Source of the DNA: Linnemannia elongata
Lineage: Eukaryota; Mortierellomycota; Mortierellomycetes; Mortierellales; Mortierellaceae
Direction of reading: 5' to 3'
Assembly (NCBI GenBank): GCA_036320915.1
Contig: JAXBDG010000005.1
Coordinates: forward strand, 2,843,857 to 2,907,856
DNA length: 64,000 nt
Below, piece by piece: positions 47,107 through 64,000 of this stretch; position 1 is the first letter of the stretch; the number at the start of each line of letters is the position of its first letter. A program made the position numbers and the translations under genes. The notes beneath the pieces were generated by a model. The model was not told the DNA's origin, made no database searches, and worked only from the letters and a program-made list of their open reading frames with translations.

Positions 47107-47208
47107 TGGTATTGACACGGCTAGCATCTAGACTTCTAAGCAACTATAGAGGCATAGAGCGACGATTTGCTATATTTTTAACCGCTGTCTTGCATAAATC
47201 TTAACATC

Positions 47209-48160
47209 ATGGAGACACCTATTGGAGACAAGCCCATGCCAAAAAAACTTGCACGACTGTTTGACGGTCTACTGGAGGACGAATGGGTATTCCTTGATAA
47301 ACCATGGCAAATGTGCCCAAAACTTAAGACGTATCACCGTTCAGAGTGTAAGCAAATTGCGAGAGTACAGGACATGAAAGCCGCGTTGAAGAAGCGACTT
47401 GCTCCCATCCTGGTGTTTTCTTCCTGGCCAAAATATGGTGCAAGCATTATTTCCCTGGGCCATTTAACTTGCTGGAGGAAGGCATCACGTTCCTGTACTT
47501 TTTCGTCTCTGGAGAGACTATGGATTCCATATCGCAATACTTGCTATAATCCACATTCCATGTCATATACAGCACTTTCGCCAAGGTGGAGCGTGCGTTG
47601 TTGATAGGAGATCAAACGCTGTTTTGCATCCATGTTTTCGTCTTTGGAAATTCGCATTCGAACAGCCAACTGGGAAAATCCACAACTGTTCCAGCATGTT
47701 AGAACAATCATGTTGGATGGTCATGATTCTCGAGCATCGTTTAAGCTCAAAAAATCAGGTTTGAGAACACAAGTTGCTATCGATACCAATGGGATGGTAC
47801 TCTTCATATCCAAATCGGCATCATGCCGTGATAACAACGATGGCAAAATGCTGCTTGAGATGGTATTGGCAAAAAATCGGCAGCATGGACTGTATTGTCC
47901 TTGATAGGGGACACACACAGCACCATACCTGATCATCTGGAGGAAGAACAGTTGGAAGAGCATAACTTTTGTTCAAATATCCGCAAGAAACGCATGCAGT
48001 CACTCCACGGGAAACTGATTTAATGCTATGTTTGGTGGGTTTCGACCCATGTTAGAGCATACGTTTAGTGACCTCATGAAAACATTTAAAAAGTTTAACA
48101 AGGAGATTGTACGAACAGCTTTGCCTTCACTTGTTAAATGTTCGTAATTATGTACGCGCA
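47209..48160 (+). pseudogene. Decayed Harbinger-like DDE transposase copy
   Basis: A divergent, broken relative of the transposases of elements A-D. It starts METPIGDKPMPKKLARLFDG, aligning with the MSSGNVPEKLQDLF start of A. Later segments match EIRIRTANWENPQLFQHV, MLDGHDSRASF, KKSGLRTQVAIDTNGMVLFI and SKSASCRDNNDGKMLLEM. Several frameshifts and stops follow, and the region around the catalytic Glu is deleted or unrecognisable. No inverted repeats are visible. It ends where the terminal repeat of element C begins. Confidence 0.8.
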
Positions 48161-48169
48161 CTCGAAATC

Positions 48170-48495
48170 GGGAGTCATCCGGGTCCAGTATAGAGAGGCT
48201 TTGCAAGATGTGTGAGGGGATGCTGCGTAGATGAGCATATGTTTTAAAAAGGCGGTACCGGGGATGGATGAGTTTAGGATAGAGGGGAGCGTACAGTAGA
48301 TCTGGGCAAAAGAAGTAGGCTATGGGAGGTTGTGTGTATGAAAGACCTTGAGGGGGGGGAGGTTGTAGCATTACTCTAGCTGATGCCCTCAACCCCCCTT
48401 TCGTGTTATCCATTGCCGATAACCTACGGTATACGCGTGATTTACAAGTAACAAATGGCAAATGCGTTCATGGTAGACCAGGCATTTACATGATA
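48170..48495 (+). repeat. Left terminal inverted repeat of element C
   Basis: Closely matches the ends of elements A and B: GGGAGTCATCCGGG, then ttttaaaaaggcggtaccgg, a G-run, tgatgccctc and a C-run followed by ttatccattgccgat. Confidence 0.85.
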
Positions 48496-48507
48496 TAAAA
48501 CGCAAAC

Positions 48508-49717
48508 ATGTCAAGCGGCAACGTTGCCGAAAAACTCCAAGATTTATTCAGGTCGATTATCCAGGAATAGCGGATCTTTTTGGATGATCCCTGGCCAATG
48601 TACCTAAAAACTCGTAGGGCACACCGGTCTGAGTTCAAGGTCATCAAGGGTATGCGACACATGAAATTAGAGGTCATGTCCAAGCTGGGGGCTATTGCGG
48701 TGTACTTCTTCCTGACGGTCCTGTGGAATAAAGTATACTTCCCCGGTTCGTATAAGGCACTTGAAAAGGGTATTGCCTTCTTATATTTTTTTGTCTCTGG
48801 AGAATCCATGGAGTCCATGTCGGTGTTCATGCCCAGGTCTTCCTTCTACGAGATCTTTTCGCACGTTCTTCAAGGAGGAAAGGAGCCTGTTCAACAAGGA
48901 AATGGCAAGGTGCTTCTCAACCATGTTTTCCACCCCAGAGATACGCATGCGATCGGCCAGATGGAGTAACCCAAAGATGTTCAAGCATGTAACACTGCTG
49001 CTGGATGGCCATGACACACGGGCAACCTACGGGGAGTTAAAGTCGGAGATGTACAGCTTTAAGTTCAGGAAGTCAGGCCTCCGCACACAAGTATGCATAG
49101 ACGTCAACAACATGGTGGTCTTTGTGTCCAAGTCCGAGTCATGTAAGAAACACAACGATGGTACCATGCTGGTTGACATGGGTGTGGCCAAAAGGATTCA
49201 TGAGGTGGACTGCATTGGCCTCGATGGTGGATACCCACAGCATATACCCAAGCTCCTGGAGAAAGAGGACACCCTGGATATTCGCAACTTTTGTTTTCCC
49301 ATACGTAAGCGCACTGGACAGCCCTTGGATGAGGATGAGGCTACCTTTAATACGATGTTCGGAGGATTCAGGTCTATGGTTGAAAATACCTTTGGTGACC
49401 TCGGATCCACCTTTGCCAAGTTCAACCATAAAGACGCCATCCGTACCACCGACAAAAGGGAGGTTAACATGATGTTGTGGCCGTGCTTTCTGCTGCTAAA
49501 TGTACGTAATATGTCCAACAACCTCAGCCTGGATATACTACCCCACCATATGGAATGGATCGAGGATGGATTCGACTATCCAACCACCAATAAGCCTGTC
49601 CTGCAGAACTCCGAGGTAGAGACTGTCCAAAATAGGCTACAGAACGGATCTGAACTACAGGAACTCCAGAACGCGTTCTTGGGAATGGACATGTCGGAGG
49701 ATGACGAGGAATTGTAG
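48508..49717 (+). pseudogene. Element C DDE transposase, one stop and one frameshift
   Basis: Nearly identical to the element B transposase. It is broken by a TAG early on (after SIIQE) and by one extra T in gagatcttttcgcac (about 48855), which shifts the frame. Downstream of the frameshift the protein is intact to the terminal SEDDEEL, including LLLDGHDTRA, LDGGYPQHI and MVENTFGDL. The high identity despite the breaks indicates a recent copy. Confidence 0.85.
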
Positions 49718-49769
49718 GACCTGATTTCTGTAGCAGCATGTACCAAGTTTTTAAAAGCCTTACCTCACG

Positions 49770-51023
49770 TTACTCCTGGACCAGCTGACACTTCATGTCG
49801 TTTGTGCCTTTGGAGCGGACTATGCGTTCTGCAAGGAAGGTCATCTTTGGCACATGGTGGATTCTTACTTGGCCATTCGTTCCCCTATATTTTCCCCGCC
49901 ACCTTTCCCACAGGTTACAGAGGGACTTGCCGGCTCTAACTCTGGTACCACAGTCCATAATTATATGCCAGTACAAAGTCCCACGAAACTCCTTTAGGCC
50001 TGCTGCTGCAATGGTATATATGCGACCTAGCTCAAGCACATTGTAGCCGGTTCCAAAGGCGGATGAATGTATATTCTGCATATGCTTAACATACTGCCCA
50101 TCATCGGATCTGCGCTCCACAAGGACAGCTAAGGGTGCACTCTCCTTGTGGTGTCGCCTCTTTGGCCATCCAATGCGGATGTTGTCCGCAGGTACAATAC
50201 CCATGTCGGCAAACTTATATACTTCGCGGTCGAACAGTGCGTATGAGGGGAACATACCCTTGGAACCACCTGGTACCAATGTTTTGGCCTTGCAGCCCGG
50301 CTCTCTCTCATACATCTTCTCCTTGGTGACCTCCACTGTACCATTCTCGCTAACTTTGGCCTCCACGTAGTAGATGGGACGGTCGTTGAACGAGTAGTTG
50401 GCAACCAGGTGCATGGCAAGCGGCGCTGAAACTTGGGACCACATATAGCCGTACTTCTTGCGGGTTGTGGAGCTCCACCAGTGGCAGTATGCAAAGACCT
50501 TGCTTCCAGGGATATACACCGCGACCATGGCCTTTATAAGCTCAGCACGTTCTATCCAGTGTTGCTCATAGCTGTAGTCAAACGTGGTGCAGCCCTCCAA
50601 AAGTCTACGCGCATCATCCATCCTATCTCGGTAGACTGCCAGAGGGTGCAGACTTGAGCCATAAAAGGTTAACTCCAGCCGTGAAAGGCCATGATCCCTG
50701 TGGCGCAATAGAGTCCTGGTGAACTTCTCATCTGGATTGGCACCTATATCCTCCATCCTTGAGCCGAGACTCTTTCGCACATCCGCGCTTTCGAGCATCT
50801 GGACCAGCTTGTTATAGGCCTTGTACCTGATTTTTTGGGCATTGTCTGCAGGAGCAAACCAGGTCACACAATGGTCACCCAAACGTCCGCGATCGTTGAC
50901 TATCGTAGAAATGCCACGAGACTTCAAGTGCCTCTCCAAGTAGGTCCGGGTTGATACATACCTGCAGTCGTGCGTCATGTCGATGTCATGCAGGACAAGG
51001 TACCGCTTCCGAAGGACAGGCAG
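49770..51023 (-). pseudogene. Element C Rep-like gene, 5' truncated by element D
   Basis: An intact frame from LPVLRKRYLVLHDIDMTHDC to the C terminus CQLVQE. About the first 160 residues are missing: at 51023/51024 the sequence switches from Rep-like coding (tgcctgtcc on the minus strand) to the end of element D. The chimeric frame would run a few codons into the D repeat. Otherwise nearly identical to the element B protein. Confidence 0.85.
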
Positions 51024-51375
51024 GGCAATCGTCCACATCCCTAATACATGAGGAAGCACCATAGGAGTGGTCGATCGTGTATAATATCAGGCAACTTTTA
51101 AAAAGCATGGATACAGGAGGCAGAGGATTTGTATAGATGGTAGTGGTGGGTAAGAGGAGGTGGATAATATGGGTGGTGGTGTAAAGGAGAGGCCAATGGA
51201 GGTTTGGGGAGGGTTGTAGTTTTCCACTGGCCGATGCTTACACCCCCCCTTTGGTCCATTCCAGGTGTATTTGGAGATGTCTCTTGGCTATGCAGTGCAG
51301 TCTCTGAGCATCTCCCCTGACATGTATTGGAATCCGCTTTTGCTGGTATCATAGGCCCATCTTGAATGCTCTGCG
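51024..51375 (+). repeat. Left terminal inverted repeat of element D
   Basis: Pairs with 54755-55105 at very high identity by eye. It contains cttttaaaaag near 51090, a G-rich ggagggttgtag and a C-run ttacaccccccctttgg. Confidence 0.9.
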
Positions 51376-51417
51376 TTGGCGGGTTGTGGACGTCGCAATG
51401 GTACCCAATATATCATC

Positions 51418-51687
51418 ATGCCTGTTTCCCACGAAAAGTCTCTCCAGCAGGATGTTTTCGCCGAGTTTGTTGACGATCATCGTCTTGAGTATTGTATGTT
51501 TGTTTACCTCGATGCATTCCTCGATACCCATCGCGCTAAGTATCCTGACCTTGTCGACAGATGGGATCCCAATGCTATGTATGAGATGCTAGAACAGGTT
51601 TACAACGGTATCCGCCTAGAGCTCCTAAAACACGGACTTCTAACAGATAAGGCGGCTGGTGAGTATGTGATGAAAAGGTCCCAGTGA
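51418..51687 (+). CDS. Element D small protein (89 aa)
   Basis: Starts MPVSHEKSLQQDVFAEFVDD. It shares KSLQQDV, DHRLE, the VYLDAF block, HRAK, a central W and AGEYVM with the products in A and B. The predicted fold is helical; there are no Cys/His clusters. It ends just before the TTTTTAAAAA box and 53 bp before the Rep-like start. The function is unknown; conservation across two subfamilies shows it is a real element gene. Confidence 0.7.
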   Translation: MPVSHEKSLQQDVFAEFVDDHRLEYCMFVYLDAFLDTHRAKYPDLVDRWDPNAMYEMLEQVYNGIRLELLKHGLLTDKAAGEYVMKRSQ

Positions 51688-51740
51688 GCCATGGTTGGCT
51701 TGAGTGGTTTTTAAAAATTTGCCCAAACACACAAGCCAAC

Positions 51741-53432
51741 ATGACAAGATCAAACGAGTCCATTATCAACGAGATTCTCAAGAAGTACACCGGTAATTTG
51801 GCTGACTTTGGTAGGCAGTCCTGTTCCCGCAGAGAGAGTAGACAGGGCTTTGCAAAGTTTTCCAAGATGTTTTGCGACAGCTTGGTTATGTGGGGACTCT
51901 ACAATACCTTGTCTGAGGACACCAAGGGAGTAACCATTGGGAAGTACATGGCAGAGTTGCGTGAGCTTTGTAGTAGGCACTCCTTGCCCTGTGACTCTAT
52001 TAAGATGGTTACTACGGGTACAAATGTCGGCGAGGAGTATTTCTCAGAGGACATGAAGGAAGCGTACGCCGCAGAGTTTGCTGGACAGTCCCTCCACATG
52101 GGGTACATTGCCATTAAGATGTCCCTGAAACAGTGCCGAGCAAAGAGGGCTGTGTTGGCATTGTCACCCATGCTGGAGACCCTCAGAAGCAAGCATATGG
52201 TACTTCATGACATAGACATGACCCGCGACTGCCGATATGTCACAGAACGTCGTCTTGTTGAGCAACATCTGTTGCGGAATGGTATCACCAAGGTCATCAA
52301 GGACCGTAGTCGTGTGGGTGACCATTGTATCTCCTGGATGGGCAGTTCAGATGACACCAAGAACATCCGCTACAAGGTCTACAACAAGTTTGTACAGATC
52401 CTAGAGAGCGCTGAGGTCCGTAAGAGTCTTGGGTCAAGGATGGAGGGTCTTGTAGCTGATGATGACGAAAGGTTCATGGCAAGGCTGCTTCGCCACAAGG
52501 ACCATGGGATGTCCCGTCTGGAGCTGACATTCTATGGTAGTACCTTGTTGTCTTTGGACGAGTACCTGGCCCACTTGGCTGATGCAAGGGCCCTGCTGAG
52601 CACTTGTCGTGTCTATGACTACAGCTATGAGGAGATGTGGAAAGAAAGGGCCAACTACATAGAGTCCATGGTCGCAGTGCATATACCTGCCAAGAAGGTC
52701 TTTGCCTACTGCCATTGGTGGAACTCGGTGACCTCCAAAAAGTATGGATATATGTGGAAGAACGTTGGATCCAAACTTGTTCCCCTGCTGCTGGCCAACT
52801 ACTCTTTCAACGACAGGCCTATCCATTACATCAAGGTCAAGGTGGATGACGCTGGAGTGGTGGAGATTATCAGCGAGAAGGTCTACGAGAGGGAATCTGG
52901 ATGCACAGCCATGACATTGGTTGCTGGCAAGACCAAAGGCATGTTTCCCTCTCGAGACACCTGTGAGGGACTTGTCTACGAGTTCTCGGAGGTTGGCATT
53001 GTGGAGCATAAGAATATCTCCATTGGATGGCCCGAGAAGAAGCATAGCAAGAAGAGCAGGCCATTAGCAGTCCTTGTTGAGAAGCCTACATCCGATAGAC
53101 ATGAGGGATATGTCCGGTGGATGAAGAAGCCGCACTCCACCTTGTTTACCGCCGATTACAACATCCTTGTCCCAGGCACAGAATATACCGTTAATGCCGC
53201 AGGGTTGGCAGATTTCCGGGGAAACAGCTACTGGCATTTGGTCACCGAATGTGGCCTCAAGGTCAAGGCTGGAAAGTCCCTTGAAGGCATCTGGGAACGA
53301 TGGAGAGGCCAATACAGAGGAAACCATGGCGGGGTTCTCATCCACAAAATCCCCAAGATGAGGTTTTTGGCAGAGAGAAAGGTTAAAATCAGAGGTATGT
53401 CTGTCGTGAAGTGCGTCTTGGTGAGGACTTAG
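51741..53432 (+). CDS. Element D Rep-like protein (563 aa)
   Basis: The start MTRSNESIINEILKKYT aligns with MSRSKEAIINEILNKYT of A and B, and a TTTTTAAAAA box lies about 24 bp upstream. The central region has LHDIDMTRDCRYV, GDHCISW, IRYKVYNKFVQILE, VRKSLGSRM and MSRLELTFYG. The D-x-T-x-D, then Y-x-K, then R-x-E arrangement recalls the replication-initiation (Rep_trans/phage CRI-like) families, but I see no clear HUH motif, so this is tentative. The C-terminal half (AYCHWW, KKYGYMW, ANYSFNDRPIHYI, MFPSRD, GKSLEGIWERWRGQYRG) is unfamiliar. It converges with the transposase. Intact. Confidence 0.8.
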   Translation: MTRSNESIINEILKKYTGNLADFGRQSCSRRESRQGFAKFSKMFCDSLVMWGLYNTLSEDTKGVTIGKYMAELRELCSRHSLPCDSIKMVTTGTNVGEEYFSEDMKEAYAAEFAGQSLHMGYIAIKMSLKQCRAKRAVLALSPMLETLRSKHMVLHDIDMTRDCRYVTERRLVEQHLLRNGITKVIKDRSRVGDHCISWMGSSDDTKNIRYKVYNKFVQILESAEVRKSLGSRMEGLVADDDERFMARLLRHKDHGMSRLELTFYGSTLLSLDEYLAHLADARALLSTCRVYDYSYEEMWKERANYIESMVAVHIPAKKVFAYCHWWNSVTSKKYGYMWKNVGSKLVPLLLANYSFNDRPIHYIKVKVDDAGVVEIISEKVYERESGCTAMTLVAGKTKGMFPSRDTCEGLVYEFSEVGIVEHKNISIGWPEKKHSKKSRPLAVLVEKPTSDRHEGYVRWMKKPHSTLFTADYNILVPGTEYTVNAAGLADFRGNSYWHLVTECGLKVKAGKSLEGIWERWRGQYRGNHGGVLIHKIPKMRFLAERKVKIRGMSVVKCVLVRT

Positions 53433-53508
53433 ATGGTGGTAGCGTGGCATAGGTTTTTAAAAACTTGGACGTAGGTCGTAGCATGGCACAGGTTTTTAAA
53501 AACTTGGC

Positions 53509-54714
53509 TCAGATCATCTCATCCTCATCTGACAGATCCATCCCAAGGAATTCTTCCTGTAGTCGCAACAGCTCTGCACCGCTCTCCAGCCTGTTTTGCA
53601 CCGTGGCTACCTGGGACTGCACCAAGACAGACTGCTTACGTGGATAGTCAAACCCATCCTCTGCCCATGCCATATGGTGGGGTTGTACCTCAAGGTTAAG
53701 AGCATTGGACATATTACGGACATTCATCAGCAGGAAACATAGGCGCATCATCATGTTAACCTCCTTCTTGTCTGTAGTACGTATGGACTCCTTGTTGTTG
53801 AACTTTCTAAATGTACGCCCAAGATCCCCAAATGTGGCCTCGATCATGGACCTGAAGCCAGCGAACTCGGAGTTAAATAAGGCCTCATGCTCGTCCAAGT
53901 CCTGTCCCGGTTTCTTGCGGATAGGGAAGCAAAAGTTCCTTACATCCAGAGAGTCCTCACGTTCAAGCAGGGTAGGGATATGCTGTGTATATCCGCCATC
54001 AACACCTACACAGTCCATCTCATGGATCTTGTTTGCCAGGCCCATTTCTACCATCATGCTGCCGTCGTTGTTGTCTTTACATGGAGCGGACTTGGAGACA
54101 AAGAGTACCATGTGGTTGATGTCTATGCACACCTGGGTCCTGAGGCCAGACTTCTTAAGCTTGTATGAGTACATCTTGGCCTTGGTTTCGCGATATGTTG
54201 CCCGGGTATCATGACCATCCAGCAGCAGGGTAATATGCCTGAACATCCGTGGGTTAGTCCATACGGCAGACCTCATGCGGATTTCAGGGGTAGAAAACAT
54301 GTTGGCAAAACATCTCGTCATCTCCTTCTCAAACAGCCTCTTCTCGGTCTTGAAGAAAGTTCTGTAGATCTCATAGAAGCTAGACCTAGGCAAAAACACA
54401 GACATGGCCTCCATAGAATCGCCTGAAACAAGATAGTACAGGAGGGCAATACCTTTCTCCACTGCTTTGTATGGACCTGGGAAATACACCTTGTTCCAAA
54501 GGGTTGTGAGAAAGAAGAACACACCAATGGCTCCTATCTTGCCTATGACCTCCTCCTTCATGTGCTGCATGTTGTTAATTGGCTTGAGCTCCGATCGGTG
54601 GAACTTTCTGGTGGTAGGGTACAATGGCCATGGATTGTCAAGAAAGCCCCACTCCTCCGCGAGTATTGCATTCAGGCAGGCGTTGAGCTTCTTTGGGATT
54701 TTGGGCTCGGACAT
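53509..54714 (-). CDS. Element D DDE transposase (401 aa)
   Basis: A Harbinger/DDE_4-like transposase. The start is set at MSEPKIPKKLNACLNAI because it aligns with the METPIGDKPMPKKL and MSSGNVPEKL starts of relatives; an in-frame ATG lies at 54762 inside the repeat. Catalytic candidates are LLLDGHDTRA, VDGGYTQHIP and RSMIEATFGDLGR, spaced as in A and B. Other conserved blocks are FPGPYKAVEKGIALLYYLVS, KKSGLRTQVCIDINHMV and NVRNMSNALN. It ends in an acidic DEDEMI tail. All catalytic positions are present. Confidence 0.85.
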   Translation of the reverse strand: MSEPKIPKKLNACLNAILAEEWGFLDNPWPLYPTTRKFHRSELKPINNMQHMKEEVIGKIGAIGVFFFLTTLWNKVYFPGPYKAVEKGIALLYYLVSGDSMEAMSVFLPRSSFYEIYRTFFKTEKRLFEKEMTRCFANMFSTPEIRMRSAVWTNPRMFRHITLLLDGHDTRATYRETKAKMYSYKLKKSGLRTQVCIDINHMVLFVSKSAPCKDNNDGSMMVEMGLANKIHEMDCVGVDGGYTQHIPTLLEREDSLDVRNFCFPIRKKPGQDLDEHEALFNSEFAGFRSMIEATFGDLGRTFRKFNNKESIRTTDKKEVNMMMRLCFLLMNVRNMSNALNLEVQPHHMAWAEDGFDYPRKQSVLVQSQVATVQNRLESGAELLRLQEEFLGMDLSDEDEMI

Positions 54715-54754
54715 TGGGTATGTTGAAGGAAGGCCCCGCACAACCTGCCATACC

Positions 54755-55105
54755 CAGAGCATTCAAGATGGGCCTATGATACCAGCAAAAGCGGGTTCCA
54801 ATACATGTCAGAGGAGGTGCTCAGAGACTGCACTGCATAGCCAAGAGACATCTCCAAATACACCTCGAATGGACCAAAGGGGGGGTGTAAGCATCGGCCA
54901 GTGGAAAACTACACCCCCCCCCCAAACCTCCATTGGCCTCTCCTTTACACCACCACCCATATTATCCACCTCCTCTTACCCACCACTACCATCTATACAA
55001 ATCCTCTGCCTCCTGTATCCATGGTTTTTAAAAGTTGCCTGATATTATACACGATCAACCACTCCTATGATGCTTCCTCATGTATTAGGGATGTGGACGA
55101 TTGCC
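54755..55105 (-). repeat. Right terminal inverted repeat of element D
   Basis: Reverse complement of 51024-51375 with few differences. It ends ...GGGATGTGGACGATTGCC at 55105. Confidence 0.9.
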
Positions 55106-55406
55106 TTGCTTCACGTCTTGAATGTCAGCAATTAGAAATAAATGTTGCTTCATACTCTTGAAGGCTACACACAAGATGTAGACCACCCGTGATCTTTCCA
55201 CCGACAGTCCACGATGCCTTCCACTGTGATAACATGGAGAACGAACAGAGATTTCGTGTGGACATCATATAGTCTCAACAGGGATTGCTATAGTATACCT
55301 GCTCACCATGACTTGATTCCACCATGAATCCTGCTTGTTGATGACCTTGATGTTTTTAAAAATATACAAGATATGCAATAGTATGAGCTAGATTAAAATA
55401 TTCCCC
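55106..55406. repeat. 301-bp dispersed repeat, copy 1
   Basis: Almost identical to 61678-61978, the right-hand 301 bp of the insert in element A. It lies between the right end of D and the left end of B and includes a TTTTTAAAAA box at 55353-55362. A further 17 bp of unrelated sequence precede the B terminal repeat. Confidence 0.85.
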
Positions 55407-55423
55407 ATAGGTTTTTCTCCAAT

Positions 55424-55740
55424 GGGAGTCATCCGGGTCCAGTATAGAGAGGCTTTTCATGATGTGTGAGAGTATGGTGCATAGATGAGCCTATGTTTTA
55501 AAAAGGTGGTACCGGGGATGGATGAGTCCAGGATAGAGGGGAGCGTACAGTAGATCTGGGCAAAAGAAGTAGGCTCTGGGAGGTTGTGCTGCATGAAAGA
55601 CCTCGAAGGGGGGGTTGTAGCTTTACTCTGGCTGATGCCCTCGACCCCCCTTTGGCGTTATCCATTGCCGATGACCTATGGTATATGCGTGATGTACAGG
55701 TAAGGAATGACAAATGCGGTATGGCAGACCAGGTAAGTAC
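55424..55740 (+). repeat. Left terminal inverted repeat of element B
   Basis: Begins GGGAGTCATCCGGGTCC and matches the A and C ends over about 310 bp, including gttttaaaaaggtggtaccg and paired G- and C-runs flanking tggctgatgccctcg. Confidence 0.9.
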
Positions 55741-55758
55741 AGGATATACAAAACAAAT

Positions 55759-56967
55759 ATGTCAAGCGGCAACGTTCCCGAAAAACTTCAAGATTTGTTC
55801 AGGGCGATTATTCAGGAGGAGTGGACCTTCCTGGATGATCCCTGGCCAATATACCCAAAAACACGTAGGGCACACCGGTCCGAGTTCAAGGTCATCAAGG
55901 GTATGCGACACATGAAATTAGCCGTTATGTCCAAGCTGGGGGCTGTTGCGGTGTACTTCTTCCTGACGGTCCTGTGGAATAAAGTATACTTCCCCGGTCC
56001 GTATAAGGCACTTGAAAAGGGTATTGCCTTCTTATACTTTTTTGTCTCTGGAGAATCCATGGAGTCCATGTCGGTGTTCATGCCCAGGTCTTCCTTCTAC
56101 GAGATCTTTCGCACCTTCTTCAAGGAGGAAAGGAGCCTGTTCAACAAGGAAATGGCAAGGTGCTTCTCAACCATGTTTTCCACCCCAGAGATACGCATGC
56201 GATCGGCCAGATGGAGTAACCCAAAGATGTTCAAGCATGTAACACTGCTGCTGGATGGCCATGACACACGGGCAACCTACGGGGAGTTAAAGTCGGAGAT
56301 GTACAGCTTTAAGTTCAGGAAGTCAGGCCTCCGCACACAAGTATGCATAGACGTCAACAACATGGTGGTCTTTGTGTCCAAGTCCGAGTCATGTAAGAAA
56401 CACAACGATGGTACCATGCTGGTTGACATGGGTGTGGCCAAAAGGATTCATGAGGTGGACTGCATTGGCCTCGATGGTGGATACCCACAGCATATACCCA
56501 AGCTCCTGGAGAAAGAGGACACCCTGGATATTCGCAACTTTTGTTTTCCCATACGTAAGCGTAATGGAAAGCCCTTGGATGAGGATGAGGCTACCTTTAA
56601 TACGATGTTCGGAGGATTCAGGTCTATGGTTGAAAATACCTTTGGTGAGCTCGGATCCACCTTTGCCAAGTTCAACCATAAAGACGCCATCCGCACTACC
56701 GACAAGAGGGAGGTTAACATGATGTTGCGGCTGTGCTTTCTGCTGCTAAATGTACGTAATATGTCCAACAACCTCAGCCTGGATATACTACCCCACCATA
56801 TGGAATGGATCGAGGATGGATTCGACTATCCAACCACCAATAAGCCTGTCCTGCAGAACTCCGAGGTAGAGACTGTCCAAAATAGGCTACAGAATGGATC
56901 TGAACTACAGGAACTCCAGAACGCGTTCTTGGGAATGGACATGTCGGAGGATGACGAGGAACTGTAG
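55759..56967 (+). CDS. Element B DDE transposase (402 aa)
   Basis: A Harbinger/DDE_4-like transposase, expected to cut and join element ends. The start is taken at MSSGNVPEKLQDLFRAI by alignment with D and the 47.2-kb copy; the frame is open back to 55714. Candidate catalytic residues (numbered from 55714) are D181 in LLLDGHDTRA, D254 in LDGGYPQHIP and E307 in MVENTFGEL. Between them lie FKFRKSGLRTQVCID and KHNDGTMLVDMG. A C-terminal helical block (MLRLCFLLLNVRNMSNNLSL) and the acidic tail SEDDEEL complete it. No N-terminal DNA-binding finger is obvious. Intact. Confidence 0.88.
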   Translation: MSSGNVPEKLQDLFRAIIQEEWTFLDDPWPIYPKTRRAHRSEFKVIKGMRHMKLAVMSKLGAVAVYFFLTVLWNKVYFPGPYKALEKGIAFLYFFVSGESMESMSVFMPRSSFYEIFRTFFKEERSLFNKEMARCFSTMFSTPEIRMRSARWSNPKMFKHVTLLLDGHDTRATYGELKSEMYSFKFRKSGLRTQVCIDVNNMVVFVSKSESCKKHNDGTMLVDMGVAKRIHEVDCIGLDGGYPQHIPKLLEKEDTLDIRNFCFPIRKRNGKPLDEDEATFNTMFGGFRSMVENTFGELGSTFAKFNHKDAIRTTDKREVNMMLRLCFLLLNVRNMSNNLSLDILPHHMEWIEDGFDYPTTNKPVLQNSEVETVQNRLQNGSELQELQNAFLGMDMSEDDEEL

Positions 56968-56997
56968 GGCCTGATTTCTGTAGCAGCATGTACCAAG

Positions 56998-57065
56998 TTT
57001 TTAAAAACCTTATGGTATATTACCTTACGTTACTCCTGGACCAGCATGTACCAAGTTTTTAAAAA
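56998..57065. repeat. Duplicated TTTTTAAAAA spacer between convergent genes of element B
   Basis: The segment gtaccaagtttttaaaaacctta...ccttacgttactcctggaccagc is present twice in tandem (boxes at 56998-57007 and 57056-57065). It is single in A and C. A short local duplication. Confidence 0.85.
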
Positions 57066-57077
57066 CCTTACCTTACG

Positions 57078-58775
57078 TTACTCCTGGACCAGCTTACACT
57101 TCATGTCGTTCGTGCCTTTGGAGCGGACTATGCGTTCTGCAAGGAAGCTCATCTTTGGCACATGGTGGATTCTTACTTGGCCATTCCTTCCCCTATATTT
57201 TCCCCGCCACCTTTCCCACAGGTCACAGAGGGACTTGCCGGCTCTAACTCTGGTCCCACAGTCCATAATTATATGCCAGTACAAAGTCCCGCGAAACTCC
57301 TTTAGACCTGCTGCTGCAATGGTATATATGCGACCTGGCTCAAGGACATTGTAGCCGCTTCCAAAGGTAGATGAGTGCATATTCCGCATATACTTAACAT
57401 ACTGCCCATCATCAGGTCTGTGCTCCACAAGGACAGCTAATGGTGCACTCTCCTTGTGGTGTCGCCTCTTTGGCCATCTAATGCGGATGTTGTCCACAGG
57501 TACAATACCCATGTCGGCAAACTTATATACTTCGCGGTCGAACAGTGCGTATGAGGGGAACATACCCTTGGAACCACCTGGTACCAACGTTTTGGCCTTG
57601 CAGCCCGGCTCTCTCTCGTAGATCTTCTCCTTGGTGACCTCCACTGTACCATTCTCGCTAACTTTGGCCTCCACGTAGTAGATGGGACGGTCGTTGAACG
57701 AGTAGTTGGCAACCAGGTGCATGGCAAGCGGTGCTGAAACCTTGGACCACATATAGCCGTACTTCTTGCCGGTTGTGGAGTTCCACCAGTGGCAGTATGC
57801 AAAGACCTTGCTTCCAGGGATATACACCGCGACCATGGCCTTTATAAGCTCAGCACGTTCTATCCAGTGTTGCTCGTAGCTGTAGTCGAAGGTGGTGCAG
57901 CCGTCCAAAAGCCTACGCGCATCATCCATCCTATCTTGGTAGTCTGCCAGAGGGTGCAGCCTTGAGCCATAAAAGGTTAACTCCAGGCGTGAAAGGCCAT
58001 GATCCCTATGGCGCAATAGAGTCCTGGTGAACTTCTCATCTGGATTGGCAACTATATCCTCCATCCTTGAGCCAAGACTCTTTCGCACATCCGCGCTTTC
58101 GAGCATCTGGACCAGCTTGTTATAGACCTTGCACCTGATTTTTTGGGCATTGTCTGCAGATGCAAACCAGGTCACACAATGGTCACCCACACGTCCGCGA
58201 TCGTTGACTATCGTTGAAATGCCCTTAGCCTTCAAGTGCCTCTCCAAATAGGTCCGGGTTGATACATACCTGCAGTCATGGGTCATGTCGATGTCATGCA
58301 GGACAAGGTACCGCTTCCGGAGGACAGGCAGGATGGAAGCCATGGCCACTACCACCTTTTTGGCACGGCAGTGGTAGAGAGACACCTTGATAGAGACAAA
58401 TCCGGCAGAGTATGGTCCATTGCTGTTCTCCTGTGCATGTGCGGTTTGGATGTCAGCAGGGATATACTCATGGTCCAACAGAGTGCCACTATGCAACGAC
58501 TTGATGGAATCGTAAGGTAGATCCGCCTTGCCAAATGCCTCACGTAAGTCAGCCATATATTTGCCAATGGACTTACCCTTGCCCTTTTCATCGGCAGAGT
58601 TGACCGGAGCCCAAAAGACCATACTGTCACAGAACATCTTGGAGTACCGTGTGAACCCCTTGCGTTTGGTAGCTCCAAGACTACCAAGGGGATGTACACA
58701 TTTGCCAACGTCGGCAAGGTTCTGAGTGTACTTATTGAGGATCTCGTTGATGATAGCTTCCTTTGATCGTGACAT
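57078..58775 (-). CDS. Element B Rep-like protein (565 aa)
   Basis: Intact reference copy for the family. It starts MSRSKEAIINEILNKYT, with a TTTTTAAAAA box at 58795-58804, 20 bp upstream; an upstream in-frame ATG at 58847 would read through the box and is less likely. Core motifs: LHDIDMTHDCRYV, GDHCVTWF, IRCKVYNKLVQMLE, VRKSLGSRM, LSRLELTFYG, VFAYCHWWN, KKYGYMW, ANYSFNDRPIYYVEAKV, GMFPSYALFDREVY and KSLCDLWERWRGKYRG. It ends CKLVQE. Similarity to rolling-circle initiator folds is only motif-level (D-x-T-x-D, Y-x-K, R-x-E). It may act in element replication or end recognition with the transposase. Confidence 0.82.
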   Translation of the reverse strand: MSRSKEAIINEILNKYTQNLADVGKCVHPLGSLGATKRKGFTRYSKMFCDSMVFWAPVNSADEKGKGKSIGKYMADLREAFGKADLPYDSIKSLHSGTLLDHEYIPADIQTAHAQENSNGPYSAGFVSIKVSLYHCRAKKVVVAMASILPVLRKRYLVLHDIDMTHDCRYVSTRTYLERHLKAKGISTIVNDRGRVGDHCVTWFASADNAQKIRCKVYNKLVQMLESADVRKSLGSRMEDIVANPDEKFTRTLLRHRDHGLSRLELTFYGSRLHPLADYQDRMDDARRLLDGCTTFDYSYEQHWIERAELIKAMVAVYIPGSKVFAYCHWWNSTTGKKYGYMWSKVSAPLAMHLVANYSFNDRPIYYVEAKVSENGTVEVTKEKIYEREPGCKAKTLVPGGSKGMFPSYALFDREVYKFADMGIVPVDNIRIRWPKRRHHKESAPLAVLVEHRPDDGQYVKYMRNMHSSTFGSGYNVLEPGRIYTIAAAGLKEFRGTLYWHIIMDCGTRVRAGKSLCDLWERWRGKYRGRNGQVRIHHVPKMSFLAERIVRSKGTNDMKCKLVQE

Positions 58776-58809
58776 GTTGTTAATAGATTCTTGCTTTTTA
58801 AAAACTCCC

Positions 58810-59094
58810 TTAGGTGGCCTTTGGCTCAGTGCGCATAAGGTACTCACCGGCAGCTTCGTTGGTCAACAGTCCTTTCTCAGAGAGTTCACGTCGGATACCC
58901 TTGTATACCTTTTCCAGCATCGAGTATATAATATGTGGACACCAGGTTTCACCAAAGTCAGGAGGAGAGTTAGCGCGGTGAATATCCATGAATGCATCAA
59001 GGTACACATACATACAGGTCTCTAAGCGATGGTCCGTGATAAATTCGGCGACAACATCCTGTTGCAAAGATTTCTGTGTAAGTGGAATAGGCAT
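58810..59094 (-). CDS. Element B small protein (94 aa)
   Basis: Starts MPIPLTQKSLQQDVVAEFIT. It has the same DHRLE, YVYLDAF and AGEYLM blocks as in A and D. The stop lies just before the TTTTTAAAAA box that precedes the Rep-like gene. Unknown function; intact. Confidence 0.7.
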   Translation of the reverse strand: MPIPLTQKSLQQDVVAEFITDHRLETCMYVYLDAFMDIHRANSPPDFGETWCPHIIYSMLEKVYKGIRRELSEKGLLTNEAAGEYLMRTEPKAT

Positions 59095-59222
59095 TGTTGT
59101 TGTCTTTGGGGCACCTGGTCTACCATACCGCTGATTTGTCATTCCTTACCTGTACATCACGCATATACCATAGGTCATCGGCAATGGATAACGCCAAAGG
59201 GGGGTCGAGGGCATCAGCCAGA
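59095..59222 (-). repeat. Partial right terminal repeat of element B
   Basis: The inner about 120 bp of the repeat (toward the small ORF) are present, up to gagggcatcagccaga. The outer part is missing, and element A's GGGAGTC starts at 59223. A short GAG microhomology lies at the join. Confidence 0.8.
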
Positions 59223-59534
59223 GGGAGTCATCCGGGACTAGTATAGATAGGCGCTTCAAGGTGTGTGAGAGTATGCTGCATAGATTACCATATGTTTTAA
59301 AAAGGCGGTACCGGGGATGGATGAGTTTAGGATAGAGGGGAGCGTACAGTAGTTCTAGGTAAAAGAAGTAGGCTCTGGGAGGTTGTGCTGCATGAAAGAC
59401 CTCGAAGGGGGGGTTGTAGCTTTACTCTGGCTGATGCCCTCAACCCCCCTTTGGTGTTATCCATTGCCGATGACCTACGGTATATGCATGATGTAAAGGT
59501 AACGAATGACAAATCGGCGGTATGGTAGACAAGG
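59223..59534 (+). repeat. Left terminal inverted repeat of element A
   Basis: Pairs with 63351-63660 with only a few differences (for example ttctaggtaaaag versus ttcggggtaaag). Confidence 0.93.
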
Positions 59535-59553
59535 TGCCCCAAAGAAAACAACA

Positions 59554-59835
59554 ATGCCTATTCCGCTTACACATAAATCTTTGCAACAGGATGTCGTCGC
59601 TGAATTTATTACGGACCATCGCTTAGAGACCTGTATGTATGTGTACCTTGATGCATTCGTGGATATTCACCGCGCTAAATCTCCTGACTTTGGTGAAACC
59701 TGGTGTCCACATACTATCTACTCGATGTTGGAAAAGGTATACAAGGGTATCCGACGTGAACTCTCTGAGAAAGGACTGTTGACCAACGAAGCTGCTGGTG
59801 AGTACCTTATGCGCACTGAGTTGAAGGCCACCTAA
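59554..59835 (+). CDS. Element A small protein (93 aa)
   Basis: Starts MPIPLTHKSLQQDVVAEFIT. It shares the conserved blocks of the B and D copies and ends TELKAT. A longer in-frame start at 59506 lies within the terminal repeat and is absent from the D alignment, so the inner ATG is preferred. Unknown function. Confidence 0.68.
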   Translation: MPIPLTHKSLQQDVVAEFITDHRLETCMYVYLDAFVDIHRAKSPDFGETWCPHTIYSMLEKVYKGIRRELSEKGLLTNEAAGEYLMRTELKAT

Positions 59836-59869
59836 GGGAGTTTTTAAAAAGCAAGAATCTATTAACAAC

Positions 59870-61516
59870 ATGTCACGGTCAAAGGAAGCTATCATCAACG
59901 AGATCCTCAATAAGTACACGCACAACCTTGCCGACGTTGGCAAATGTGTACATCCCCTTGGTCGTCTTGGAGGTACCAAACGCAAGGGGTTCACACGGTT
60001 CTCCAAGATGTTCTGTGATAGTATGGTTTTTTGGGCTCCGGTCAACTATGCCGATGAAAAGGTCAAGGGCAAGTCCATTGGCAAATATATGGCTGACTTA
60101 CGTGAGGCATTTGGCAAGGCGGATCTACCTTACGATTCCATCAAGTCGCTGCATAGTGGCACTCTGTTGGACGAAGAGTATATCCCTGCTGACATCCAAA
60201 CCGCACATGCACAAGAGCACAGCAATGGACCATACTCTGCCGGATTTGTCTCTATCAAGGTGTCTCTATACCACTGCCGTGCCAAAAAGGTGGTAATGGC
60301 CATGGCTGTCATCCTGCCTATCCTTCGGAAGCGGTACCTTGTCCTGCATGACATCGACATGACCCATGACTGCAGGTATGTATCAACTCGGACCTATTTG
60401 GAGAGGCACTTGAAGGCTAAGGGCATTTCAACGATAGTCAACGATCGCGGACGGGTGGGTGACCACTGTGTGACCTGGTTTGCATCTGCAGACAATGCCC
60501 AAAATATCAGGTGCAAGGTCTATAACAAGCTGGTCCAGATGCTCGAAAGCGCGGATGTGCGAAAGAGTCTCGGTTCAAGGATGGAGGATATAGTTGCCAA
60601 TCCAGATGAGAAGTTCACCAGGACTCTATTGCGCCATAGGGATCATGGCCTTTCACGGCTGGAGCTAACCTTTTATGGCTCAAGGCTGCACCCTTTGGCG
60701 GTATACCAAGATAAGATGGATGATGCGCGTAGGCTTTTGGACGGCTGCACCACGTTTGACTACAGCTATGAACAGCACTGGATAGAACGTGCTGAGCTTA
60801 TAAAGGCCATGGTCGCGGTGTATATCCCTGGAAGCAAGGTCTTTGCATACTGCCACTGGTGGAACTCTACAACCCGCAAGAAGTACGGTTATATGTGGTC
60901 CAAAGTTTCAGCACCGCTTGCCATGCACCTGGTTGCCAACTACTCGTTCAACGACCGTCCCATCTACTATGTGGAGGCCAAAGTTAGCGAGAATGGTACA
61001 GTGGAGGTCACCAAGGAGAAGATGTATGAGAGAGAGCCAGGCTGCAAGGCCAAAACATTGGTACCAGGTGGTTCCAAGGGTATGTTCCCCTCATACGCAC
61101 TGTTCGACCGCGAAGTATATAAGTTTGCCGACATGGGTATTGTATCTGTGGACAACATCCGCATTGGATGGCCAAAGAGGCGACACCACAAGGAGAGTGC
61201 ACCCTTAGCTGTCCTTGTGGAGCGCAGATCCGATGATGGGCAGTATGTTAAGCATATGCAGAGTATACATTCATCCGCCTTTGGAACCGGCTACAATGTG
61301 CTTGAGCCAGGTCGCATATATACCATTGCAGCAGCAGGCTTAAAGAAGTTTCGCGGGACTTTGTACTGGCATATAATTATGGACTGTGGTACCAGAGTTA
61401 GAGCCGGTAAGTCCCTCTGTAACCTGTGGGAAAGGTGGCGGGGAAAATATAGGGGAACGAATGGCCAAGTAAGAATCCACCATGGCGACCATCCAAGCAT
61501 AAGATATACAGCATAG
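59870..61516 (+). CDS. Element A Rep-like protein with altered C terminus (548 aa)
   Basis: Nearly identical to the element B protein from MSRSKEAIINEILNKYT through RGKYRGTNGQVRIHH. There a 494-bp insertion replaces the last about 30 residues with GDHPSIRYTA and a stop. The natural end of the gene (coding ...MTFLAERIVRSKGTNDMKCK) resumes at 61979-62064. The lost tail contains basic residues conserved in B, C and D, so activity may be reduced. A TTTTTAAAAA box at 59841-59850 precedes the start. Confidence 0.8.
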   Translation: MSRSKEAIINEILNKYTHNLADVGKCVHPLGRLGGTKRKGFTRFSKMFCDSMVFWAPVNYADEKVKGKSIGKYMADLREAFGKADLPYDSIKSLHSGTLLDEEYIPADIQTAHAQEHSNGPYSAGFVSIKVSLYHCRAKKVVMAMAVILPILRKRYLVLHDIDMTHDCRYVSTRTYLERHLKAKGISTIVNDRGRVGDHCVTWFASADNAQNIRCKVYNKLVQMLESADVRKSLGSRMEDIVANPDEKFTRTLLRHRDHGLSRLELTFYGSRLHPLAVYQDKMDDARRLLDGCTTFDYSYEQHWIERAELIKAMVAVYIPGSKVFAYCHWWNSTTRKKYGYMWSKVSAPLAMHLVANYSFNDRPIYYVEAKVSENGTVEVTKEKMYEREPGCKAKTLVPGGSKGMFPSYALFDREVYKFADMGIVSVDNIRIGWPKRRHHKESAPLAVLVERRSDDGQYVKHMQSIHSSAFGTGYNVLEPGRIYTIAAAGLKKFRGTLYWHIIMDCGTRVRAGKSLCNLWERWRGKYRGTNGQVRIHHGDHPSIRYTA

Positions 61517-61978
61517 ACTTTTAAAAACAAGGAATATACCTTGCGCATTAGCTTCCACTTGTATTTATCACCTGGTTCTAATCTCCAAGTACAAGTTACA
61601 TGCAGAGCACCTGCACCAAACTTTTATACTCTAGCCTGTCGATGATATTACATTGCGAATAATCTGCTCATGTTTCGTTGCTTCACGTCTTGAATGTCAG
61701 CAATTAGAAATAAATGTTGCTTCATACTCTTGAAGGCTACACACAAGATGTAGACCACCCGTGATCTTTCCACCGACAGTCCACGATGCCTTCCACTGTG
61801 ATAACATGGAGAACGAACAGAGATTTCGTGTGGACATCATATAGTCTCAACAGGGATTGCTATAGTATACCTGCTCACCATGACTTGATTCCACCATGAA
61901 TCCTGCTTGTTGATGACCTTGATGTTTTTAAAAATATACAAGATATGCAATAGTATGAGCTAGCCTAAAATATTCCCC
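61485..61978. mobile_element. 494-bp insertion in element A Rep-like gene
   Basis: Flanked by a direct CATG (61481-61484 and 61979-61982) that looks like a 4-bp target duplication. Without it the coding sequence reads as in element B. The ends are GCGACCATCC and TATTCCCC, with no evident inverted repeats. It carries TTTTTAAAAA-type boxes near both ends (61519-61527 and 61925-61934). The right 301 bp recur at 55106-55406. No substantial ORF is visible. Nature unknown, possibly a small non-autonomous element. Confidence 0.75.
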
Positions 61979-62117
61979 CATGTGCCAAAGATGACCTTCC
62001 TTGCAGAACGCATAGTCCGCTCCAAAGGCACGAACGACATGAAGTGTAAGCTGGTCCAGGAGTAACGTAAGGTAAGGTTTTTAAAAACTTGGTACATGCT
62101 GCCACAAAAATCAGGCC

Positions 62118-63326
62118 CTACAGTTCCTCGTCATCCTCCGACATGTCCATTCCCAAGAACGCGTTCTGGAGTTCCTGTAGTTCAGATCCATTCTGTAGCC
62201 TATTTTGGACAGTCTCTACTTCGGAGTTCTGCAGGACAGGCTTATTGGTGGTTGGATAGTCGAATCCATCCTCGATCCATTCCATATGGTGGGGTAGTAT
62301 ATCCAGGCTGAGGTTGTTGGACATATTACGTACATTTAGCAGCAGAAAGCACAACCGCAACATCATGTTAACCTCCCTCTTGTCGGTGGTACGGATGGCG
62401 TCTTTATGGTTGAACTTGGCAAAGGTGGATCCGAGCTCACCAAAGGTATTTTCAACCATAGACCTGAATCCTCCGAACATCGTATTAAAGGTAGCCTCAT
62501 CCTCATCCAAGGGCTGTCCAGTGCGCTTACGTATGGGAAAACAAAAGTTGCGAATATCCAGGGTGTCCTCTTTCTCCAGGAGCTTGGGTATATGCTGTGG
62601 GTATCCACCGTCAAGGCCAATGCAGTCCACCTCATGAATCCTTTTGGCCACACCCATGTCAACCAGCATGGTACCATCGTTGTGTTTCTTACATGACTCG
62701 GACTTGGACACAAAGACCACCATGTTGTTGACGTCTATGCATACTTGTGTGCGGAGGCCTGACTTCCTGAACTTAAAGCTGTACATCTCCGACTTTAACT
62801 CCCCGTAGGTTGCCCGTGTGTCATGGCCATCCAGCAGCAGTGTTACATGCTTGAACATCTTTGGGTTACTCCATCTGGCTGATCGCATGCGTATCTCTGG
62901 GGTGGAAAACATGGTTGAGAAGCACCTTGCCATTTCCTTGTTGAACAGGCTCCTTTCCTCCTTGAAGAACATGCGAAAGATCTCGTAGAAGGATGACCGG
63001 GGCATGAACACCGACATGGACTCCATGGATTCTCCAGAGACAAAAAAGTATAAGAAGGCAATACCCTTTTCAAGTGCCTTATACGGACCGGGGAAGTATA
63101 CTTTACTCCACAGGACCGTCAGGAAGAAGTACACCGCAACAGCCCCCAGCTTGGACATAACGGCTAATTTCATGTGACGCATACCCTTGATGACCTTGAA
63201 CTCAGACCGGTGTGCCCTACGAGTTTTTGGGTACATTGGCCAGGGATCATCCAAGAAGGTCCACTCCTCCTGAATAATCGCCCTGAACAAATCTTGAAGT
63301 TTTTCGGGAACGTTGCCGCTTGACAT
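62118..63326 (-). CDS. Element A DDE transposase (402 aa)
   Basis: Virtually identical to the element B enzyme. The start is at MSSGNVPEKLQDLFRAI; the frame is open to 63371. Catalytic candidates LLLDGHDTRA, LDGGYPQHIP and MVENTFGEL are all present, and it ends with SEDDEEL. It is convergent with the Rep-like gene; a TTTTTAAAAA box at 62078-62087 lies just beyond the stop. Confidence 0.88.
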   Translation of the reverse strand: MSSGNVPEKLQDLFRAIIQEEWTFLDDPWPMYPKTRRAHRSEFKVIKGMRHMKLAVMSKLGAVAVYFFLTVLWSKVYFPGPYKALEKGIAFLYFFVSGESMESMSVFMPRSSFYEIFRMFFKEERSLFNKEMARCFSTMFSTPEIRMRSARWSNPKMFKHVTLLLDGHDTRATYGELKSEMYSFKFRKSGLRTQVCIDVNNMVVFVSKSESCKKHNDGTMLVDMGVAKRIHEVDCIGLDGGYPQHIPKLLEKEDTLDIRNFCFPIRKRTGQPLDEDEATFNTMFGGFRSMVENTFGELGSTFAKFNHKDAIRTTDKREVNMMLRLCFLLLNVRNMSNNLSLDILPHHMEWIEDGFDYPTTNKPVLQNSEVETVQNRLQNGSELQELQNAFLGMDMSEDDEEL

Positions 63327-63350
63327 ATTTGTTTTGTATATCCTGTACTT

Positions 63351-63660
63351 ACCTGGTCTACCATACCGCATTTGTCATTCGTTACCTTTACATCATGCAT
63401 ATACCGTAGGTCATCGGCAATGGATAACACCAAAGGGGGGTTGAGGGCATCAGCCAGAGTAAATCTACAACCCCCCCTTCGAGGTCTTTCATGCAGCACA
63501 ACCTCCCAGAGCCTACTTCTTTACCCCGAACTACTGTACGCTCCCCTCTATCCTAAACTCATCCATCCCCGGTACCGCCTTTTTAAAACATATGGTAATC
63601 TATGCAGCATACTCTCACACACCTTGAAGCGCCTATCTATACTAGTCCCGGATGACTCCC
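63351..63660 (-). repeat. Right terminal inverted repeat of element A
   Basis: Reverse complement of the left repeat, ending ...CTAGTCCCGGATGACTCCC at 63660. Confidence 0.93.
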
Positions 63661-63698
63661 AGAGATGGGAAACATTGGGAACTTGTAAGTTTTATGAG

Positions 63699-64000
63699 GT
63701 TTTTTAGGGTTTTTAAGGGTTTTTTAGGGTTTTTTAGGGTTTTTTAGGGTTTTTTAGGGTTTTTTAGGGTTTTTTAGGGTTTTTTAGGGTTTTTTAGGGT
63801 TTTTAGGGTTTTTTAGGGTTTTTTAGGGTTTTTTAGGGTTTTTTAGGGTTTTTTAGGGTTTTTTAGGGTTTTTTAGGGTTTTTTAGGGTTTTTTAGGGTT
63901 TTTTAGGGTTTTTTTAGGGTTTTTTAGGGTTTTTAGGGTTTTTAGGGTTTTTTAGGGTTTTTTAGGGTTTTTTAGGGTTTTTTAGGGTTTTTTTAGGGTT
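63699..64000 (+). repeat. Telomere array with TTTTTTAGGG-type unit
   Basis: About 30 tandem units run to the end of the window with the G-rich strand 5' to 3' outward, as expected for a right chromosome end. The main unit is TTTTTTAGGG (six T); units with five or seven T occur, and one early unit reads tttttaaggg. No canonical six-base TTAGGG arrays are present. The 38 bp between element A and the array (agagatgggaaacattggg...) are partly degenerate telomere-like sequence. Confidence 0.95.

Follow-up and report, generated by a model that had tools for sequence, protein, structure and literature searches.

Subtelomeric Harbinger-like transposons with a Rep_trans-like partner protein in Linnemannia elongata

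A nest of transposons at a chromosome end

The stretch of DNA analysed here, referred to as the window, constitutes the final 64 kb of contig C28 in the 51.1-Mb, 32-contig genome of the fungus Linnemannia elongata, and its positions 48170-63660 hold a nest of four transposon copies, some of them truncated, which fall into two related families, F1 (copies A, B and C) and F2 (copy D). In the plan of each copy a small protein and a protein of about 565 residues, hereafter Rep, are encoded on one strand and a DDE_Tnp_4 transposase is encoded convergently on the other, and it is Rep, predicted to resemble the Rep_trans initiators of rolling-circle replication, that is the main subject of the present work.

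The sequence-only reading of this locus had described four copies on one shared plan, and the repeats, frames and coordinates are indeed real (Table 1), but only B and D have uninterrupted Rep frames, C is broken and B has lost the outer portion of its right repeat at the start of A. Uninterrupted transposases and the small protein are found in A, B and D. Copy A is the only one in the window with both tips plus matching 3-bp flanks, its Rep frame ending early where a 495-bp insert interrupts it, while D has both tips and no target duplication, and C breaks off at about residue 142 of Rep and has a broken transposase frame. A clean insertion of A into the repeat of B was considered and rejected, since the right flank of A leaves B after AGAG and a corresponding other half is present at C11, so that the halves were probably reshuffled by recombination.

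The DNA of A, B and C is 93-95% identical across 1.7-2.9 kb, far above chance, and the proteins of F1 and F2 share 55% (Rep), 69% (transposase) and 61% (small protein) identity, the closest named matches coming from L. elongata and other Mortierellaceae. All three genes recur in a third family, F3 (C7:1598452-1602585), with 47% (Rep) and 55% (transposase) identity to F1, and the common plan of F1-F3 comprises inverted repeats of 310-380 bp, a protein of about 90 residues, Rep and the convergent transposase. A whole F1 element is 3941 bp long with 313-bp repeats beginning GGGAGTCATCCGGG, and the F2 repeats of D are about 370 bp long and begin GGCAATCGTCC.

Genome-wide there are at least 79 Rep and at least 100 transposase matches, totals that are lower bounds in which pieces are counted separately. 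When an uninterrupted Rep is defined as a match that covers 560 or more of the 565 residues and contains no stop, 29 of the 79 qualify, and all 29 have a convergent transposase 59-238 bp away (24 uninterrupted over at least 395 residues, one with a stop and four partial). As many as 62 of the 79 Rep matches, those on C12 and C18 being treated as internal, lie no more than 35 kb from a contig end, regions that make up about 4.4% of the genome, and at all 11 telomere-bearing ends retrieved an element fragment starts 56-214 bp from the telomere array. Together with the array closing this contig, these figures bear out the subtelomeric location proposed earlier and show a nested subtelomeric accumulation of the elements. 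A large share of the chromosome ends in this fungus consists of F1-F3-type elements, which are as such relevant to how its subtelomeres are constructed. The spacers between the outermost element fragment and the telomere array, of about 57-214 bp at the ends of C2, C3, C7, C9, C10, C16, C17, C29, C30 and C31, are partly similar among several ends when judged by eye.

Table 1. Positions of the transposon copies and associated features in the window
Feature	Copy (family)	Positions	Strand	Remarks
Whole copy	A (F1)	59223-63660	+	4438 bp including 495-bp insert; AGA / AGA flanks
Left terminal inverted repeat	A	59223-59534	+	Tip GGGAGTCATCCGGG; 97.8% to right repeat
Right terminal inverted repeat	A	63351-63660	-	
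G-run/C-run hairpin, left repeat	A	59407-59449	+	Candidate Rep nick site (putative); placed from F1 reference copy
G-run/C-run hairpin, right repeat	A	63434-63476	-	Placed from F1 reference copy
Small conserved protein	A	59506-59835	+	109-residue frame; conserved core of about 90 residues from 59563
Rep-like gene	A	59870-61516	+	Shortened near residue 541 by insert
Insert in Rep gene	A	61484-61978	+	Solo 495-bp F4 terminal repeat; CAT / CAT flanks
DDE_Tnp_4 transposase	A	62118-63371	-	417 residues
Whole copy	B (F1)	55424-59223	-	Outer right repeat absent at junction with A
DDE_Tnp_4 transposase	B	55714-56967	+	417 residues; triad D181, D254, E307
Rep-like protein	B	57078-58775	-	About 565 residues; uninterrupted; source of structure models
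Small conserved protein	B	58810-59142	-	110-residue frame
Whole copy	D (F2)	51024-55105	+	Both tips (GGCAATCGTCCAC); no target duplication; within Rep gene of C
Small conserved protein	D	51376-51687	+	Core from 51409
Rep-like protein	D	51684-53432	+	Uninterrupted; 55% identity to B Rep
DDE_Tnp_4 transposase	D	53509-54762	-	
Hairpin, right repeat	D	54879-54923	-	Left counterpart at about 51207-51255 with interrupted G run
Partial copy	C (F1)	48170-51023	-	Cut at start of D; longest transposase piece 48761-49717; C-terminal part of Rep about 49770-51023
F4 terminal-repeat fragment	Between D and B	55106-55410	+	
Telomeric array GGTTTTTTAG		63698-64000	+	Contig end

Farther inside the arm the window holds decayed fragments resembling F3-type elements (32348-32954, 43294-43992 and 47180-48119), a tandem array with 84/168-bp units that borders the subtelomeric cluster on its inner side (44398-45497) and, beside the element cluster, a partial eukaryotic large-subunit rRNA (46313-46926; RF02543, 410 bits), no other listed Rfam match in the window reaching the gathering score.

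Linkage, selection and mobility of the gene set

The dN/dS ratio, relating nonsynonymous to synonymous change, is 0.11-0.26 among F1 Rep copies, and in comparisons between F1, F2 and F3 the proportion of synonymous differences (pS) is 0.71-0.85, i.e. near saturation, against 0.19-0.37 for nonsynonymous differences (pN), and this holds for Rep, transposase and small protein alike. Selection is thereby shown to act on all three genes, as had been supposed from their retention in diverged subfamilies. Beyond this genome a protein search with Rep found 103 relatives, the named ones coming from Mortierella, Linnemannia, Podila, Actinomortierella, Gryganskiella, Haplosporangium and Apophysomyces, the last of which has a Rep relative of 30% identity and belongs to the Mucorales. 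Judging linkage in other species from equal contig sizes and locus tags, 10 of 96 transposase relatives lie on a contig exactly as long as that of a Rep relative, as against 0-3 with shifted lengths; BGZ52_005333 and BGZ52_005334 of Haplosporangium bisporale are neighbouring locus tags of a Rep/transposase pair, and in L. elongata AG-77 what appears to be a single contig (271981 bases) matches all three genes. Furthermore, Rep and transposase distances are correlated over 12 linked pairs (Mantel r = 0.93, reached in 0 of 10000 permutations), a set from which one of the ten linked contigs (97812, transposase coverage 17%) was left out and in which contig 3296 is represented by one of its two Reps, the Rep alignment having 30 of the 103 matches, mostly short or partial, left out. 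From the linkage elsewhere and the correlated distances we can conclude that the three genes have long travelled as a set, and an accidental association of genes that are mostly separate is not what the material examined presents, with 29 of 29 paired in this genome and ten apparently shared contigs elsewhere.

The transposases of F1, F2 and F4 (a relative described below), which were the ones scanned, score 36.9, 48.8 and 33.6 bits, respectively, against PF13359 (DDE_Tnp_4; cut-off 24.8), and the D-73/74-D-52/53-E spacing of the catalytic triad, which in F1 consists of D181, D254 and E307, is kept in all four families F1-F4, in keeping with the triad of PHIS (PIF/Harbinger-ISL2EU-Spy) elements, which stands in contexts of the DGGY and FRSM-E-FG types. 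Counting copies within the retrieved stretches only, 4 of 12 tip-to-tip F1 copies have 3-bp target duplications on their flanks (AAT, AAT, TTA and AGA), among them both retrieved solitary copies distant from contig ends (C1:2474929 and C28:617685). Two F2 copies have them as well when counted together with their extra terminal units (ACG and TCT), and none was seen among the retrieved F3 copies. One F1 copy (C1:4481373) is furthermore inserted cleanly within an F3-type element. Copies devoid of duplications sit in mosaic clusters in which the halves of a single insertion site recur at different ends, and recombination is the likely cause of the missing duplications. Integration with 3-bp duplications is hence well supported, and triad, profile score and duplications agree with the PIF/Harbinger-like assignment made previously. 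No Myb/SANT match was however found in Rep or in the small protein of F1 and F2, nor did Rep match another profile that would make it a known Harbinger accessory protein, and the element is for lack of a Myb/SANT partner set apart from the canonical two-gene Harbinger. A branch of related transposases (about 37-45% identity) has an added chromodomain (PF00385), and none of these lies on a contig equal in length to that of a Rep match.

The family F4, 5820 bp long (e.g. C7:3460-9279; also on C2 and C16), has a DDE_Tnp_4 transposase of 44% identity and no Rep, encoding instead proteins of 671 and 105 residues, the former with weak matches, below cut-off, to DUF5763 and a primase zinc finger. Its 496-bp terminal repeats are direct, resembling long terminal repeats, a plan that is unusual for a DNA transposon, and in the C7 copy as in the C2 copy the two repeats do not differ from each other. 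All three complete copies retrieved have 3-bp duplications (AAT, TAA and ACA), and solo repeats carry them as well (CAT, ATG, TTG and TAT). A related transposase with other partners shows that this transposase lineage swaps partners and that the Rep partner is not obligatory for it, and F4 serves as a control in that it has neither Rep nor the hairpin described below. An apparent preference of F4 for Rep genes (by eye, Rep is the site of 7 of the 8 insertions of F4 type in F1-F3) was dropped, the insertions being too few.

The Rep protein and its putative active site

By sequence alone Rep is hard to place. The F1 and F2 Reps have no Pfam match, and for 76 members only chance-level families appear among the 25 of 62 families listed, PF02486 (Rep_trans) not being one of these; likewise PHROGs and NCBIfam gave no match, a search of PDB by sequence found nothing with either one Rep or a 76-row profile, the PF02486 profile has 0 matches at E <= 0.001 over the L. 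elongata genome, the home of all F1-F3 copies, and an hhalign comparison of Rep with Rep_trans was not significant. As to origin, a search of phage records by tblastn gave tail-spike noise only and three short peptide patterns found nothing in viral contigs and a prokaryote genome collection, where remote relatives would escape them, so that no bacterial source of Rep was traced in these phage, viral and prokaryote sequences.

The predicted structure of the B Rep (predicted local distance difference test, pLDDT, 94.2) shows a TBP-like fold whose top PDB match over the whole model is the staphylococcal Rep 4cwe (E 8.5e-4) and whose BFVD matches include two named inovirus Reps (3.0e-4 and 5.5e-4), the fold scoring equally against Rep_trans and TBP entries. 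In plasmid records of Rep_trans proteins the YNK-motif tyrosine has position 191 in RepC, whose length we take to be 314, and position 188 in RepD. Published accounts give Y191 as the nucleophile, accompanied by R189, K193 and E196 (Q184 in RepSTK1), D46, D142 and E214 as metal ligands, and R140, A144, D146 and R212 as further conserved residues, T176, Y178 and G180 being named besides (PMC4797284, in part), motif II being T/SxY/ExG and motif I including RxD (PMC5714925, in part). When the fungal residues are paired with these by eye, without coordinate superposition, the counterparts of Y191, K193, E196/Q184, D46, D142, D146, R212 and E214 prove to be conserved in 74-76 of the 76 fungal sequences: Y218, K216, K220, Q223, R263 and E265 are each present in all 76, D163 and D167 in 75 and D50 in 74, the other two having gaps, while position 165 is A or T in 71. 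The placement of these residues in the model likewise appears to agree with the Rep_trans description, D50 lying on strand 48-59, D163 and D167 on strand 158-169, K216 and Y218 on strand 212-219, Q223 on the following helix 220-226, and R263 and E265 on strand 261-269. Deviations are K216 in place of R189, D161 (73/76) where R140 would be expected, and motif II, of which no counterpart (T176, Y178, G180) could be assigned in the 76-sequence alignment.

A relaxed active-site pattern fits 69 of the 76 fungal and 7 of 7 Rep_trans sequences as against 6 of 20000 shuffled ones, one of the 96 transposases and none of the 115 frames of the window, and a tighter core pattern fits 72 fungal and 6 Rep_trans sequences, 2 shuffles, 1 transposase and 0 window frames; both were written after the alignment had been viewed and are therefore descriptive rather than proof. 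Nonetheless, the model and the conservation taken together strongly indicate that the 565-residue protein has a Rep_trans relaxase fold with the metal and tyrosine active-site residues (D50, D163, E265, Y218, K220 and R263). Rep is in our view Rep_trans-like while lying outside the Pfam family as tested, which makes more specific the Rep-like character ascribed to it before, namely as having a predicted TBP-like fold rather than being HUH. Indeed, an identity as a HUH or Helitron protein was rejected, as there is no HUH motif, no H-x-H among the invariant or near-invariant columns of the 76 sequences, and as inverted repeats and target duplications are present. An identity as TBP or transcription factor was lowered because it leaves the conserved active site unexplained and because Rep_trans shares the TBP fold (PMC13107129, in part).

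Terminal hairpins, possible mechanism and related systems

The terminal repeats of F1, F2 and F3 contain, about 185-270 bp from the tip, a run of 6-8 G, some 30 bases with TTGwAG-TTT and GGCyGATG, and a run of 6-8 C. When one repeat per family is aligned, no other 40-column stretch is as well conserved as this one (22 of 40 columns), and BLAST aligned the F1 repeats with the F2 repeats nowhere else (49 bp, 82%). F1 and F3 have the G-run/C-run pattern in each of their two repeats and F2 has it on the right side, the G run of its left repeat being interrupted. The pattern is found neither in F4 nor in positions 1-47000 of the window. Folded as DNA, five versions of the hairpin gave -9.3 to -13.1 kcal/mol with z-scores of -4.2 to -0.6, and two control stretches of the same repeats gave z-scores of 1.95 and -0.29.

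Many copies are flanked by extra terminal units, consisting of the hairpin-to-tip part and a spacer. The F1 units have an identical 32-bp spacer at ten places on nine contigs, which by an exact search with its first 12 bases is not in F1 itself, the F2 units are single and double with a period of 258, and at least four F3 units, the last of them truncated by the border of the retrieved stretch, stand in tandem with a period of 393 (C7:1602585-1604000); further sites are stretches L031 5864-6379 and L038 4761-5019, identical spacers being found at several chromosome ends. By BLAST boundaries the units start at 3716 (F1), 232 (F2) and 3860 (F3), the respective hairpins being 3715-3757, 187-231 and 3867-3907, and the start is hence at or no more than 7 bp from the inner edge of the hairpin in all three families, with the exception of one F1 unit (C8) whose alignment starts another 14 bp away. 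In the two F2 copies, which have one and two units, the duplications ACG and TCT are found solely beyond these units, where host sequence resumes, so that the units belong to the DNA that was inserted. Such units could arise if the hairpin were a site of nicking or of template switching.

On balance we favour the view that the elements are autonomous PHIS DNA transposons that have long carried a Rep_trans-like initiator instead of the Myb-like partner. The transposase would bind the tips and integrate the element, whereas Rep may nick or join one strand at the hairpin and thereby prime a displacement synthesis that copies the element either in situ or after its excision, such that the element would multiply rather than merely move; terminal units beginning near the hairpin would then be by-products of Rep-primed copying, and the small protein could, at a guess, be a DNA-binding or loading cofactor. 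More tentatively, and with somewhat greater doubt than belief, one may envisage a class of transposon that joins DDE integration with its own Rep_trans rolling-circle initiator and a hairpin origin, that would be the first eukaryotic Rep_trans lineage, that would replicate in an episome-like manner between integrations, and whose unit amplification would have helped to build the subtelomeres of Mortierellaceae.

The strict linkage and co-divergence of Rep with the transposase, and the location of the hairpins inside the terminal repeats, could also mean that Rep is a nickase serving the transposase only, which nicks or resolves terminal hairpins during excision in the role of the Myb-like partner and without replication; this seems unlikely, although it deserves to be taken seriously, since F4 moves with target duplications in the absence of any Rep and since the amplified terminal units suggest DNA synthesis. 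Less probable still is that Rep is a mere DNA-binding factor with a TBP-like fold, which lost or never had nuclease activity and binds the terminal repeats for the transposase, for while the equal scores of TBP and Rep_trans entries and the missing PF02486 match are in agreement with this notion, the near-complete retention of nucleophile, metal-ligand and basic counterparts is a constraint not expected of a binder. That the element has been recruited to the maintenance of chromosome ends, with Rep driving the copying of terminal units and so keeping or lengthening subtelomeres, is least plausible of all in spite of the fragments close to all 11 telomeric arrays and the tandem units with the 393-bp period at C7, since telomeric arrays cap these ends, solitary internal copies exist, and subtelomeres are common refuges for transposons and sites of recombination anyway.

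Compared with known systems, the fungal elements share the DDE_Tnp_4 transposase, the inverted repeats and the 3-bp target duplications with PHIS elements, including canonical Harbinger and Nuwa, but differ in having a Rep_trans-like instead of a Myb/SANT partner, in their 310-380 bp repeats with a conserved internal hairpin, and in target duplications that are not restricted to TWA, the target preferred by PHIS/Harbinger. Helitrons and IS91 likewise carry an enzyme of the tyrosine rolling-circle type inside a transposon, Helitrons however having a HUH Rep-helicase and not being known to have inverted repeats, target duplications or a DDE transposase. Partner exchange as such is not new, since fungal transposons including PHISTA, which are PHIS-type with extra non-Myb genes, are known to have captured TET/JBP genes, but there the captured gene is a dioxygenase and not a replication initiator, and the duplications of PHISTA are TA (PMC12730594, in part). 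In keeping with the suggestion that the family is undescribed, neither a rolling-circle initiator as transposon partner, or such an element, nor a Rep_trans-type protein in eukaryotes was found described in open-licence PMC papers, Repbase being outside the search.

With Rep_trans proper (PF02486; RepC and RepD of the pT181 type, RepSTK1) the fungal Rep appears to share the TBP-like fold and shares the pattern D / DxAxD / [RK]xYxKxx[EQ] / RxE, whereas it cannot be detected by profile, has no motif II that could be found and a C-terminal half without nameable counterpart, and resides in a DDE transposon of a eukaryotic host. As far as the available text goes, Rep_trans seems to be confined to bacteria apart from a single new relative in archaea, the Rep-Arvir of archaeal viruses and plasmids, likewise a remote relative known by structure and active site and associated with an origin hairpin, which differs in belonging to archaeal replicons, in a motif III reading KHYYM in SNJ2 and in that no transposase is described there (2026; PMC13107129, in part). 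HUH enzymes occur in mobile elements of each of the three domains, and a Rep_trans-like enzyme under selection in eukaryotic transposons would, if true, extend that lineage to the third domain as well and provide a testable case of a transposon possibly integrating by DDE chemistry and replicating itself.

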